DNA of 64,000 nt, from positions 1 to 64,000 of IMG/VR virus record IMGVR_UViG_3300046499_000502; one strand, given 5' to 3'. Shown piece by piece: positions 8,230 through 40,747 of the stretch (position 1 is the stretch's first letter; each line of letters opens with the position of its first letter). The translations under genes were made by a program, and so were the position numbers. The notes under the pieces are model-generated. The model had not been told where the DNA came from. It saw only the letters and a program-made list of their open reading frames with translations, and searched no databases. Source of the stretch: a virus.

Positions 8230-8985
8230 TCAACGCTTCACGTCGTACACCAGCAGGAATCGAGAAGCGTCCAGAATCATTCGGTTGAACTCCACGACGC
8301 GCCCGTCATCCTGCATCGCCAGTCGATGCTGCTCGATCACCGGGGCGCCGACAGCCAGACCTAGGTCGTCCGCCTCTACGGGAGTTGCCAGGCGGCTGCG
8401 GAACTGCTCGACGAACTCCACGGGGCCGTGGCCAGCCTCGGACAGTCGCGCATAAATGCCGCCATCCCCAGTGTCGACCTCAGTGATGCGCGTGCCGCGC
8501 GCGAACTCGTCCGGGATGTACGAGGTAGCCCGCATGACAGGCACCGCGTCGACGGCGTACTTCCGATCACGCCTCCATGCATTGGAGTCGGGCGCCAGGC
8601 CAAGCACGCGTGCAACATCGGCGGACACCCGAGGAAAGTCGACCTGCGGTTCGATCACCGCCCACTCGCGCCCCTCCACGTCGACGTCCCACATCGAGGG
8701 AACCCCTTCCCACTGGTCGGGGTACAGCCGCTTCAGCGCCCTCCGAACGATGGGCTTCCACTCGGCGAGATACCAGCCCGCCCCCTGGCGAGACTCGATG
8801 AGCCCCTCGTCGCGCAGCACGCCGAGGGCTTGTCGCACGGTCATCAACGAAACACCGTAGTGGTCACGCAGACCTCGTTCGCCGGGGAGCTTGCGCGTCA
8901 CCTCGAAATCACCGGCAGCGATACGCCGGCGCAGGCCGTCGGCGATCTCCCGATACTTGTGCGTCTCGCCGGGCTTGCGTGGCAC
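8230..8985 (-). CDS. kor: GntR-family repressor with UTRA domain (KorSA-like)
   Basis: A 251-residue regulator. An N-terminal winged helix (YREIADGLRRRIAAGDFEVT, then LPGERGLRDHYGVSLMTVRQ) is followed by a UTRA ligand-binding domain to the end. In Streptomyces conjugative elements GntR-type Kor proteins silence lethal tra expression. I chose GTG at 8985, with AAGGAG seven bases upstream. The ATG at 9009 lies within an operator copy, which implies autorepression. The effector of the UTRA domain is unknown. Confidence 0.88.
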   Translation of the reverse strand: MPRKPGETHKYREIADGLRRRIAAGDFEVTRKLPGERGLRDHYGVSLMTVRQALGVLRDEGLIESRQGAGWYLAEWKPIVRRALKRLYPDQWEGVPSMWDVDVEGREWAVIEPQVDFPRVSADVARVLGLAPDSNAWRRDRKYAVDAVPVMRATSYIPDEFARGTRITEVDTGDGGIYARLSEAGHGPVEFVEQFRSRLATPVEADDLGLAVGAPVIEQHRLAMQDDGRVVEFNRMILDASRFLLVYDVKR

Positions 8986-9006
8986 GGGCTCTCCTTGGGA
9001 CGGATT

Positions 9007-9100
9007 CATCTAGAGCAACGCTACCTGCTCTACATCTCCGCTGGTCAATGGGTGCCGCGGCCCGACATTGCGGACAGGGTGGCTTTGATTGCTCTAGAGC
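9007..9100. promoter_or_regulatory. divergent control region with Kor-type operators
   Basis: TCTAGAGCAA at 9009-9018 sits at the upstream edge of the repressor gene. A half-site TGCTCTA lies near 9025-9031. The full palindrome GCTCTAGAGC at 9091-9100 is preceded by TT. This region should drive the repressor leftward and the gene at 9184 rightward. Confidence 0.65.
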
Positions 9101-16448: not shown

Positions 16449-17201
16449 TTAGGCGGCCTCGGTGTCGCCGTCGGGCTGCACGGAGGCGGCTGAAAGCCAG
16501 GGGAGGCGGACGAACTCGAAGTGGTTCTCGAAGTCGCGGTAGAGCGTGGATTCGTTGGCGCCGCCGCAGGCTGGGCAGCGACGCAGGCCCGCTCCCTCGA
16601 CCCAGGTCGCGCGGGCGCAGCCGGAGCAGCGCGTCAGCCACGAGTTGTGGCGCCGGGTCGACGTCCAGCGGATGAAGCCGCCGTGGCGCCGTGCGAGCTT
16701 GGCTTTGGAGCGGCCGGGCCAGTGGCGGTAGTCGTCGTGGGTCCACGGGTCGATCGGTGTCGGCGGGTGGCCGACGATGACCATCTCGCCGCCGGGCCAG
16801 TCGCACGTGCAGGCGAGGGGGTCGCAGTCGCAGGCGAGCATCTTGCCGAGCTCGAAGGCCTTCTCGATGCGGGGAATGCCGGGGCCTTTGACCTCGAGCC
16901 AGACGCCTATCTCGGTGAGGTGGAAGTCGGGGAGGTACTTCACGCCGGAGTCGAGCTGGAAGGTCTGGGGCTCGTACTCCCAGGTGATGTGGAGGGAGTC
17001 GAGGGTTGCTGCCCAGCAGGCTTCGAGCAGGGAGCGGAACTGAGTGCCGCGGTAGATCGTCGGGAGGGCTGTGATGCCGGGCTGGCCGTCGGCGTCTTCG
17101 TCCGATGTCCGGGCTCCGCGCAGGTTCGCGGTCGCCTCGCGGTCCTCGCACTCCTGGATGAGGCGCTCGAGGTACGCCTCCCAGTTGTTGTACTCGTTCA
17201 C
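16449..17201 (-). CDS. PD-(D/E)XK nuclease with C-terminal zinc ribbon
   Basis: A 250-residue protein. YRGTQFRSLLEACWAATLDS at 50-69, YLPDFHL at 89-95 (catalytic Asp92) and WLEVKGP at 101-107 (Glu103, Lys105) form the restriction-endonuclease-like active site. A CSGCARA...CPACGG zinc ribbon lies near 195-220. It is adjacent to the replicative helicase, so a role in replication-intermediate processing or host DNA degradation is plausible. Its start overlaps the helicase stop. Confidence 0.8.
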   Translation of the reverse strand: MNEYNNWEAYLERLIQECEDREATANLRGARTSDEDADGQPGITALPTIYRGTQFRSLLEACWAATLDSLHITWEYEPQTFQLDSGVKYLPDFHLTEIGVWLEVKGPGIPRIEKAFELGKMLACDCDPLACTCDWPGGEMVIVGHPPTPIDPWTHDDYRHWPGRSKAKLARRHGGFIRWTSTRRHNSWLTRCSGCARATWVEGAGLRRCPACGGANESTLYRDFENHFEFVRLPWLSAASVQPDGDTEAA

Positions 17202-18520
17202 CAGATCGCTCCTGTCTCGCTGTAGCCGCTGAACTGGTCGGCGTCGATGGGCTTGTAGGAGATCCAGGGCCAGCGCTCGCCCTGCTTGATGAAGTTCGGC
17301 CAGTCGCGTTCATCGCGGCTGCCGCGCCAGGGGACGACGCGACGGCCGCGGGCGCCTTCGACGTTCTGTGCCGACTTCTCGTCCTCGACGGGGCGCAGGC
17401 CGAAGCCGAACTCGGGCCAGCGCATCCAGAGGCTGGAGCCGAGCGGGCGAAGTGAGCGCGGGCCCATGTTGTTGCCATGGGGGGCGTGGGCTTCCATCAG
17501 GACGGTGCAGCCAGCGGTGGCGCGGGCTTCGTCGATGACGACGGAGACTTTGCGGGCGAGCTCTTCGTCGTTGGGGTTGCCGGCGTGGAGCCGATAGACG
17601 GGCCCGATGATCAGCACGTCGGGCTTGATCTTCTCGACGCGGCGCATGGTCCACGCCCGGTCGGACGGCCTGGTCAGGTCAAGGCCGGAGGGGCGGCATT
17701 CGATGTGGAACTGGCCGCGTCGCACCGGTTGCTCGAGGCTGTCCGCGGCGGCGAGCAGGGGCCGGAACTTGCGGCGGGAGGCCGCCTCGCCGTTCTCGCA
17801 GTCGAGGGTGAGCACTCGGACGGGGTCGATCGTCTTCCAGGTGTCGAACGGATGGATGCCGGCGGCGAGAGTCACGGACAGCTGCCGTAGCAGAGTCGAC
17901 TTGCCGCCGCCTTCGGATGCGGTGAGGATCAGCCGGTCTTGCCGCTCGAGCAGGCCGGGCACGACCCAGTCGTAGACGTCCTCCTTCTTGACGAAGTCGA
18001 GGATGTCCTCGACGGGAAGATCTTCGGAGGCCATGCCGCGGTCGCGGAGTTCACGGGATTCGGCGACGACCCGCTCGATGAGGTTGCTGGTTTCGCCGGT
18101 GGTGCTGTAGCCGGCCTGCACGGTGCGGGTGCCGAGCTCGATGAGCGACCTGCGTAGGCCGCGGTCTTGGACGATCTCGGCGTAGTACTCGCCGTTGGCG
18201 GCGGTGGGCACGGCGCGAACGAGCTCGTACAGGTATGCGGCGCCTCCGACGCGGAGGAGATCGCCGGTGTCGGCAAGGTATTTGCCGAGGGTGATCTGGT
18301 CGACGGACAGGCCTCGCGAGTCCATGTGGAGAATCGCGGCGAAGATCACCTGGTGGCGGGCCTGGTAGAAGGCCGCGACTTCGACGGCGTCTCGGATTTC
18401 GGCGAGCGCCTTCTTGGAGAGCAGGCAGGCGCCGAGGGCGCCCTGCTCGGCTTCGAAGTCCTGCGGCGGGACACGCTCGAGCGGGATGTCCGCGAAGTCG
18501 GGCTCGAGATCGGTGGTCAC
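17198..18520 (-). CDS. replicative helicase: DnaB N-terminal domain plus RepA-type AAA ATPase
   Basis: A 440-residue protein. Residues about 15-120 match the DnaB N-terminal domain (PPQDFEAEQGALGACLLSKK). The C-terminal ATPase resembles RepA/AAA_25, with Walker A SEGGGKST at 202-209 and a Walker B-like PDVLIIGP near 300-310. It is the probable fork helicase. The GTG at 18520 abuts the stop of the initiator-like gene, the usual initiator-helicase pairing of phages. Confidence 0.85.
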   Translation of the reverse strand: MTTDLEPDFADIPLERVPPQDFEAEQGALGACLLSKKALAEIRDAVEVAAFYQARHQVIFAAILHMDSRGLSVDQITLGKYLADTGDLLRVGGAAYLYELVRAVPTAANGEYYAEIVQDRGLRRSLIELGTRTVQAGYSTTGETSNLIERVVAESRELRDRGMASEDLPVEDILDFVKKEDVYDWVVPGLLERQDRLILTASEGGGKSTLLRQLSVTLAAGIHPFDTWKTIDPVRVLTLDCENGEAASRRKFRPLLAAADSLEQPVRRGQFHIECRPSGLDLTRPSDRAWTMRRVEKIKPDVLIIGPVYRLHAGNPNDEELARKVSVVIDEARATAGCTVLMEAHAPHGNNMGPRSLRPLGSSLWMRWPEFGFGLRPVEDEKSAQNVEGARGRRVVPWRGSRDERDWPNFIKQGERWPWISYKPIDADQFSGYSETGAIW

Positions 18521-19306
18521 TTAGAAGATCCCCCTGTCTTCGGGGCTTTGTCCGGCGACGGGCCGGAGGTGGCGAACGGGCTTGGCTGGCTGGCGGGGCG
18601 CGCCTTCGGGGACCTCTGGAATGCCGCGCCATCCGGCGAGGAAGTAGCGGGCAAGTCGCGGCGTGCTGCGGGCGCGGTGCCAGGCCTCGACTGCATCGGC
18701 GACGAGAACGTCGACCGGGATGCGCTTGATGATCGATTCGATCTGCAGCCATTCGTTGGCGGACAGCTCCCAGGAGACGTGGATCCCTGCTTGCTGCATG
18801 GCGGAGACGAGCGGCTGACAGTTGACGGCGATGCGGGGGCCGTCGAGTTTCGGGGCGTCCTGCTTGCTAGCTGAAGAGGTAAAGGAACTCTTGTGGTCAG
18901 CTGCTGACCCAACTTGGTTCATCTGCTGACCTAGCTCTGGGTCAGCTGCTGACCCAGTGTCCGGATTGTCTAGGTCATCGGGTGACCCAGTAGCTAGGTC
19001 AGCTGCTGACCCAGCCGGAACGTGCAATTTGTAGACATTCCGGGCCTTCTTCCGGACCTGATCTTCCTGGCTGGGCGACGTGAACGTCACCCACTTCTCC
19101 TCGTCGAGCGTCTTTCGGTGCGCAAGGAGCGACCCCTTCGACATGCCCGTCGCGGCCATGAGCGTCGAGAGGGAGGGCTGATAGCGCGCCGGGATAACAC
19201 CCGTCTCCGAGTTGGCGAACGTAGCGATCGTCAGCGCCAGCAAGCGCGACAGCGGCGGCAGGCTGCTCGCCTTCACTGCTCGCTCGAACTCGAACCTGCT
19301 GGGCAT
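18521..19306 (-). CDS. replication initiator-like protein with internal iterons
   Basis: A 261-residue protein. The N-terminal winged-helix region (LSRLLALTIATFANSETGVI, then LSTLMAATGMSKGSLLAHRK) resembles phage O/DnaD-type initiators. A variable linker at about 98-140 contains repeated GSAAD peptides encoded by DNA iterons, and a helical C-terminal domain may contact the helicase. The layout (initiator, origin inside its gene, helicase next) parallels lambda O-P. Assignment rests on context and the helix-turn-helix. Confidence 0.75.
   Translation of the reverse strand: MPSRFEFERAVKASSLPPLSRLLALTIATFANSETGVIPARYQPSLSTLMAATGMSKGSLLAHRKTLDEEKWVTFTSPSQEDQVRKKARNVYKLHVPAGSAADLATGSPDDLDNPDTGSAADPELGQQMNQVGSAADHKSSFTSSASKQDAPKLDGPRIAVNCQPLVSAMQQAGIHVSWELSANEWLQIESIIKRIPVDVLVADAVEAWHRARSTPRLARYFLAGWRGIPEVPEGAPRQPAKPVRHLRPVAGQSPEDRGIF
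18895..19011. repeat. iteron array inside the initiator gene: candidate replication origin
   Basis: Three exact copies of GGTCAGCTGCTGACC start at 18895, 18940 and 18997. Two degenerate copies are GGTTCATCTGCTGACC (18916-18931) and GGTCATCGGGTGACC (18973-18987). Each unit is near-palindromic. The right halves are spaced 22, 23, 33 and 24 bases, so mostly about two helical turns. The encoded linker is low-complexity, suggesting DNA-level selection. This is the typical look of an initiator-binding origin. Confidence 0.75.
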
Positions 19307-19438: not shown

Positions 19439-19756
19439 ATGACCATTGCGGCTATCAGCTACGATCTGCTCATGAGCGAGCGGCCGACCGTCCACCGGAA
19501 CCAGATCGCCGAGGCACGCAACGTCCTCGGCAAGGTCATCGCCCGTGCGCGCTTCGCCGGCGAACCGACCGTGCTGGTCAATCGCGGCGAGGAAGCGGCC
19601 GTGATCGTGAGCTACGAGGACTACGCCACGCTCCGCGAACTCCGCGCCTACGTGGAGGAGCTGCAAGACGCCGACGACGTGCACGCAAAGCACAAGGCTC
19701 GTGTCCTCACCGAGGCCCTGGCCCTCGCCAAGTTCCGCGCTCTCGACTCGACCTGA
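19439..19756 (+). CDS. Phd/YefM-family antitoxin without an adjacent toxin
   Basis: A 105-residue protein. HRNQIAEARNVLGKVIARAR and TVLVNRGEEAAVIVSYEDYA carry the Phd/YefM DNA-binding fold, followed by a helical C-terminus for toxin contact. AAGGAG lies six bases before the ATG. It is the only plus-strand gene within the leftward early region, with its own operator and terminator. No toxin gene (RelE, Doc or PIN type) is visible beside it. It may counter a host toxin or act only as a regulator. Confidence 0.82.
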   Translation: MTIAAISYDLLMSERPTVHRNQIAEARNVLGKVIARARFAGEPTVLVNRGEEAAVIVSYEDYATLRELRAYVEELQDADDVHAKHKARVLTEALALAKFRALDST

Positions 19757-39597: not shown

Positions 39598-39627
39598 GGC
39601 CGGGCCGCACCAACGTGAGGAGGGGCC

Positions 39628-39675
39628 ATGAGCGACGACACGACCTGGGGCATGAGCGACACCGCCTGGGGATGA
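39628..39675 (+). CDS. 15-residue repeat peptide
   Basis: ATG at 39628 reads MSDDTTWGMSDTAWG and stops, a near-duplicate of MSDxTxWG. GAGGAGG lies six bases upstream, a promoter-like element is at 39570-39597 and a strong terminator at 39690-39722, so this is a complete transcription unit with nothing else in it. It could be a signalling peptide, a RiPP-like precursor or a leader. I found no modifying enzyme beside it. Confidence 0.5.
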   Translation: MSDDTTWGMSDTAWG

Positions 39676-39730: not shown

Positions 39731-40747
39731 TCAGAGCCCGATGTCTTCGCTGGCGGCGTCGGTCCACTTGTCGGCTTCGCGGATGTAGCCCCAGAAGGCG
39801 GGGCTGTTCTCGGCGTGGCCGGACTGGGCGCGGATCTTCTCCTCGCGCTTGCCTGCGATCCTCGAGGTCGTGATGAACCCGGCCCGCATGGAGTGGCCCG
39901 TCAGCCGGACGGCGATCCCGGCGCGCTCCGCGTTCCGGGCGATGATCTCGCGGCAGGCTTCGGGCGAGAGGCTCCTCGAGCCGACGTTGCCCCATACGTC
40001 GATGGGCAGGAAGGCGGGTCCGCTCGTGATGACGCTCGAGGACTTCCAGGTGGACCAGGCGCGGACGGGGCAGGTGTCGGGGTTCTTGCCGTAGGCGACG
40101 ACGACGTCTCGAGCGGGGCGGCCTTTGACGGAGGGGACGTGTACCTCGAGGCCCATGCTCGAGAGGACGATGCCTTCGACGGTGAGCGCGGCGACTTCGG
40201 CGGATCGGCCTGCGATGCCGAAGGCCATGAGCCATAGGGCGCGGTCGCGGAGGCCGGTCAGGCTCGAGGGTGCGGCGGCGCTCATCTTCCGCAGTTGCTC
40301 GGCGGTGGCTGCTGGGGCTTGCCCGCGTCCTCGAGCTTGGCGTTCGGGGTCGAGCTTGAGCGGCTTGAGGGCTTGGCGGGCGGCGACAGTGGCGGCCTTG
40401 GGGACTTCGACGCCTTGGCCTCGAGCGGTGACGGTGACGCCGGTGATGCGGCGGTCGATGCTGTTGGGTGCGGCGAGTTTGATGGTGTCGAGCCAGACGA
40501 CGAATCCGACGAGCGTGCCCTTGGTTACGGCGGTCAGCGGCAGCGGCTGTCCGGTGCGTTCGGCGAGCCAGTCGTGGAACTCTTCCCAGAGTGCCCAGTC
40601 GTTGGCGTAGCCGCGCTTCGTGTTGTGGGGGCGGATGGCGTCGAGGTGTTTCTCGGCTGCCTCTTCCATGGCGGCCAGAACAGCGAGCGTCGCAGCGTCG
40701 TAGGCGGCGGGGGTGGCGTCCGGCTGGCGCGGGGCGAGGTCGGTCAT
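39731..40747 (-). CDS. second tyrosine recombinase
   Basis: A 338-residue recombinase. A core-binding domain (about 35-110, HNTKRGYANDWALWEEFHDW) precedes a catalytic domain with Arg181, Lys208, His285-x-x-Arg288 (GHSMR), His311 (SGH) and Tyr321 (FWGYIREAD). All catalytic residues are present. It resembles element-borne recombinases more than classic phage integrases. It may resolve dimers, mediate a second integration or serve a captured element. Nine CTCGAG sites cluster inside it. Its start overlaps the preceding stop. Confidence 0.87.
   Translation of the reverse strand: MTDLAPRQPDATPAAYDAATLAVLAAMEEAAEKHLDAIRPHNTKRGYANDWALWEEFHDWLAERTGQPLPLTAVTKGTLVGFVVWLDTIKLAAPNSIDRRITGVTVTARGQGVEVPKAATVAARQALKPLKLDPERQARGRGQAPAATAEQLRKMSAAAPSSLTGLRDRALWLMAFGIAGRSAEVAALTVEGIVLSSMGLEVHVPSVKGRPARDVVVAYGKNPDTCPVRAWSTWKSSSVITSGPAFLPIDVWGNVGSRSLSPEACREIIARNAERAGIAVRLTGHSMRAGFITTSRIAGKREEKIRAQSGHAENSPAFWGYIREADKWTDAASEDIGL

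Follow-up and report, generated by a model that had tools for sequence, protein, structure and literature searches.

A putative replication origin of palindromic iterons inside the initiator gene of an apparently temperate actinobacterial phage

Known in-gene origins and the phage locus

An origin within the initiator gene is known from phage lambda. In the O genes of lambda and the Stx phages, iterons are placed centrally in the coding sequence and are bound by O dimers, an AT-rich tract adjoins them, and the protein has a longer linker where there are extra iterons (PMC7466680). The staphylococcal plasmid Rep proteins of the pSK41 RepA_N type have a winged-helix N-terminal domain (N-domain), central origin boxes in rep that encode a dispensable region, and a C-terminal domain (C-domain) for host replication proteins (PMC5703833). 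The Rep of plasmid pPR9 is chimeric, with a phage-type HTH_36 (PF13730) N-domain on a C-domain of another family, and its N-domain and origin were exchanged together (PMC5703833). For mycobacteriophage repA, an in-gene origin was suspected and no repeats were seen (PMC7157519).

The window analysed here was 64,000 nucleotides long and made up most of the virus record IMGVR_UViG_3300046499_000502 (70,334 bases). The DNA was GC-rich (mostly 64-73% in 2-kb windows), and relatives came from Streptomyces genomes and phages. A weak tyrosine integrase match at 39731-40747 on the minus strand (E 6.6e-5, below the Pfam cut-off) and a head-tail adaptor encoded in the window fit a temperate tailed phage. 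The phage appears to be temperate and actinobacterial. A short tandem repeat (39623-39675, about 21-24 bp, 2.4 copies) adjoined the integrase-like gene, and a GntR/UTRA transcription regulator was encoded at 8230-9009 on the minus strand. Regulators of this type are common on conjugative elements of actinobacteria.

The initiator gene occupied 18521-19306 on the minus strand and encoded 261 amino acids, arranged as an N-domain, an iteron-coding linker and a C-domain. The protein matched PHROG 270, 391 and 6643, all replication initiation families (E 1e-6 to 1e-8), and a PHROG 'O-like' family at 2.6e-6. The next gene (17198-18520, minus strand) began directly after the initiator stop codon and encoded a replicative helicase with a DnaB N-domain and a RecA-like AAA_25 domain (Pfam 3.7e-28 and 1.9e-23). 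The PHROG matches and the adjoining DnaB-type helicase gene agree with an earlier note made from the letters, which had called the gene an initiator. A Phd/YefM-type antitoxin gene (19439-19756, plus strand; Pfam 3.3e-12) was divergent from the initiator gene.

The AlphaFold model of the initiator contained two ordered domains (pTM 0.40). The N-terminal winged-helix domain, presumed to bind the iterons, covered residues 1-100 (19007-19306, minus strand; pLDDT about 80-96 by block), with residues 57-69, including G58, as the recognition helix. The disordered linker, residues 103-157 (18836-19000, minus strand; pLDDT below 50), coincided with the iteron array. The C-terminal helical domain, residues 161-230 (18617-18826, minus strand), is presumed to contact the helicase machinery. 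The structural neighbours of the N-domain were winged helices, including the primosome protein DnaB (5wtn, Z 9.0). The RepA_N initiators 4pt7, 4pql and 5kbj also matched the fold at Z 7.6-8.1, tied with many unrelated winged helices (4pt7: Z 8.1, rmsd 3.6, 89 residues). The Pfam HTH_36 match of the window protein was sub-threshold (15.4 bits against a cut-off of 25), and that of its relative L011 passed (29.6 bits). A PDB sequence search with the family profile returned nothing at E up to 1. The best fold match of the C-domain, at Z 5.9, was to AAA+ lid-like helical bundles and was too weak for assignment; a DnaD-like fold had been suspected, and none was seen in the structure comparison.

As in lambda O, the iterons were placed in the gene between the DNA-binding and C-terminal domains. 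As in pSK41 Rep, the proposed origin sites lay centrally in the initiator gene; the N-domain, like that of pSK41 Rep, was predicted to be a winged helix, the RepA_N fold matches being tied with those of unrelated winged helices. The segment is very probably the replication origin of the phage, lying within its initiator gene as in lambda O.

The iteron array

The array consisted of five near-palindromic units of 21 bp. In gene order, and given on the plus strand, these were CTAGGTCAGCTGCTGACCCAG (18994-19014), CTAGGTCATCGGGTGACCCAG (18970-18990), CTGGGTCAGCTGCTGACCCAG (18937-18957), TTGGTTCATCTGCTGACCTAG (18914-18934) and TGTGGTCAGCTGCTGACCCAA (18892-18912), the fourth lying out of frame with the rest and the fifth closest to the downstream element described below. 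The cores began at 18895, 18917, 18940, 18973 and 18997 (span 18895-19011), so that the start-to-start steps were 22, 23, 33 and 24. Five units inside the coding region with mostly 22-24 base spacing had been described in the earlier note, and both the units and the spacing were recovered. The core was exactly GGTCAGCTGCTGACC in three of the five iterons and had two mismatches in the other two. No further copy with up to two mismatches was found elsewhere in the whole 70-kb record. With up to one mismatch, GGTCANNNNNTGACC matched the window 11 times against 2.5 expected, and none of 100 shuffles reached 11; five of these matches were the iteron cluster itself. A count of loose palindrome clusters in the window alone was weak evidence, the observed count being reached in 1 of 100 simulated sequences.

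The absence of other copies bears on the reading of the iterons as operators, in which the N-domain serves only to regulate the operon of initiator and helicase at the level of transcription, the origin being at some other place. Palindromes would be suitable targets for a winged-helix regulator that acts as a dimer, and the fold neighbours included MarR, LexA and Fur-type proteins. However, the sites were 290-412 bp into the gene, and neither the region upstream of it nor any other promoter had a copy. Moreover, a fixed multi-unit array with a conserved adjacent element, together with an initiator-type protein beside a helicase, fits an origin better. The operator reading is therefore considered unlikely. 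Autorepression via the iteron sites may occur.

The array lay inside the minus-strand open reading frame, and the linker peptide read GSAAD..GSPDD..GSAAD..LGQQMNQ..GSAAD. The earlier description of a GSAAD-repeat linker held for four units, which shared a frame and encoded GSAAD-like peptides, and failed for the unit at 18917-18931, which was in another frame and encoded LGQQMNQ. The array was therefore not purely a GSAAD repeat. The four in-frame units would suit a low-complexity peptide repeat with the DNA repeat as its by-product, but the remaining unit was out of frame and the units alternated frames in many relatives; in those with steps of 22, 32, 22, 23 and 22, the same DNA unit alternated between two frames.

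Synonymous recoding with the protein kept abolished the signal. For each of 26 genes, 60 recoding trials were run, and none reached the observed repeat score. In comparisons of the window gene with two close relatives, L005 and L007, none of 50 half-site bases and none of 19 half-site third positions had changed, against 48 and 54 of 215 third positions outside the half-sites (Fisher p 0.016 and 0.009, respectively). The central five bases of the iterons varied, with 5 of 25 changed in each comparison. The frozen half-sites, including their third positions, therefore point to selection on the DNA, located in the half-sites. By these comparisons the iteron repeats are DNA signals, and an array that is mainly a peptide repeat is barely credible.

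Relatives and exchange of domains

Protein and profile searches yielded 29 usable genes with the N-domain, some of them near-identical. The array was present at the same place in the linker in 28 of them, with 4 to 8 units in two frames and steps of mostly 22, 23, 24, 32, 33 or 57. According to the earlier note, repeats that were not conserved despite a conserved protein would speak against an origin; the position of the array was kept wherever the N-domain was found, except in one relative. This was L023 (2965-3594), a short protein with the helix MSRAA, for which a search of the gene and of 2.8 kb of surrounding DNA detected no array.

The C-domain differed among members with the N-domain, and the array stayed (L017, L060, L061, L063, L067 and L071). 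The initiator C-domain was in turn conserved in Streptomyces phages with other N-domains. In SV1, SoJo, ToastyFinz, Eklok and L024, which shared the C-domain and had a different N-domain, other iterons were found, as GGCCGGAATCCGGCC-like palindromes. In the Raleigh type, which combined the shared C-domain with another N-domain, the search found no iterons. Since the array stays when the C-domain is replaced, and other N-domains have other or no iterons, the array belongs to the N-domain.

The same linkage was seen when the search started from DNA. A DNA-only scan covered 2.9 million viral contigs with the two main half-site pairs and one exact 19-mer. The N-domain was encoded at 16 of 17 loci with clustered sites and at 0 of 52 other, single-site loci (Fisher p 9e-15), several of the loci being overlapping stretches of contigs already found by the protein search. 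The only clustered motif outside the family, at 3402-3491 of L128, was a coding repeat of 69 bp within a very large open frame that has no relation to initiators. One unrelated contig, L119, came from the exact 19-mer scan and encoded no such N-domain. No relative of the initiator was found in the plasmid collection searched. Few further close relatives came from 392 genomes of one genus, where most of the weak matches were other helix-turn-helix proteins.

Clustered palindromes also occur in partition sites and stoperator clusters. A parS-like partition site or a cluster of repressor stoperators lying by chance in the initiator gene would thus produce a similar array, but there were no scattered copies in the record and the array tracked the initiator N-domain across phages. 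This explanation is very improbable. An origin that travels with its initiator remains the preferred reading. The gene downstream of the initiator in the relatives usually encoded a DnaB-type helicase or an IstB/DnaC-like ATPase, which suggests that one origin module works with different loading systems.

The half-sites differed between members together with the recognition helix. They began with a common CTAGG, or with GGTGG in L071. The half-site TCAGC (GGTCAGC) occurred in the window group, L047 and L060 with the helix SKG, and TCGCC (GGTCGCC) in ten members with SKS or AKS. Nine members had GCAG with [SVA]RA[ST], L011 and L052 had GGCA with DRST, and L071 had a variant half-site with SKPT. 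In a tree built without the recognition-helix residues, the branches around L060 (SKG, TCA) were those of SKS/TCG members. The best tree therefore requires at least two joint changes of helix and iteron. The pairing of SKG with GGTCA in two separate lineages is suggestive of covariation between helix and iteron; the code is not significant by itself because there are only one or two independent pairs.

The proposed origin and known systems

The downstream element ACAAGAGT (18887-18894, minus strand) touched the core of the last iteron. The element was identical in all 16 genes of the GGTCA and GGTCG classes, some of which translate it as HKS and some as TRV. In the other classes, CAAGAGTTCC or CAGTAGTTCC-like DNA stood at that site, and L071 used a third frame. 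Being read in three frames beside the array, the element is a concrete candidate for the site of opening. A candidate unwinding tract at 18853-18894 (minus strand) was moderately AT-rich, with an AT fraction of about 0.47 against 0.36 for the gene; the value of 0.47 in the 40 bp next to the array was reached by 10% of windows of the initiator gene. The stretch after the array was within the top 10% of AT in its own gene in 20 of 28 relatives, and its mean across relatives was 0.46 against 0.33 for the genes, two array ends being misplaced in both counts.

A working scheme was drawn by analogy with lambda O (PMC7466680) and pSK41 Rep (PMC5703833). Each palindromic 21-bp iteron would be bound by the N-terminal winged-helix domain, probably in dimeric form, and a nucleoprotein complex would assemble on the five units, which are spaced by about two to three helical turns. 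The downstream element would then open together with the moderately AT-rich DNA towards the helicase gene, and the C-domain would bring in the DnaB-type helicase encoded next door. We infer origin activity from this arrangement. The earlier note had proposed GC skew at 18.9-19.0 kb as a check; no turn was seen at 18.9 kb, and the check is uninformative here because skew follows gene direction in the window.

Tentatively, and with somewhat less than even confidence, initiator and origin can be read as one exchangeable cassette with a readable code. Gly or Ser at helix position 58 would pair with A or G as the fifth half-site base (GGTCA/GGTCG), other helix types would pair with GGGCAG or GGGGC, and the frame-independent downstream element would be a separate conserved opening site. 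The family comprises about 28 naturally occurring pairs of initiator and presumed origin, which differ in specificity, so that the co-evolution of an initiator and an origin inside its own gene is directly testable. It could also be a source of small, mutually compatible replicons for use in high-GC actinobacteria.

Also close to the window system are the Streptomyces phages SV1, SoJo, ToastyFinz and Eklok, in which the C-domain is homologous and a gene of the same kind has iterons in its linker, whereas the N-domain and the iterons, of the GGGCCGGAATCCGGCCC type, differ from those of the window. Their initiators are annotated as RepA-like, replication initiation or DNA-binding, and a helicase loader is annotated downstream of that of SoJo. 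In all four (L033, L032, L035 and L034, respectively), the GGGCCGGAATCCGGCCC-type iterons in the linker were followed by a common GAGTGA-rich stretch. These phages would represent a second origin class. No description of iterons in Streptomyces phage initiators was found in the literature searched.

The parallel to lambda O drawn in the earlier note holds for the architecture and not for the domain family or the downstream gene. The window initiator had no match to Phage_rep_O (Pfam) at E up to 1, and a DnaB-type helicase follows it instead of the P-type helicase loader of lambda. The iteron sequence is also different, and the AT-rich tract is weak in a GC-rich genome. With respect to pSK41 Rep, no RepA_N domain was matched at E up to 1; the window differs in coming from a phage of high-GC actinobacteria and in its C-domain. 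The initiator resembles lambda O and pSK41 Rep in its presumed working and lacks their defining sequence domains, so it was filed as neither. The exchange of a phage HTH_36 N-domain along with its origin has its nearest precedent in pPR9 Rep, although the window protein is below the HTH_36 cut-off and the C-domains show no relation as far as tested. Compared with lambda, the window initiator belongs to a family of its own, in which the repeats and the domain that should bind them seem to vary in step. Its members form a natural series, unusually clear, in which initiators and presumed origins are matched.
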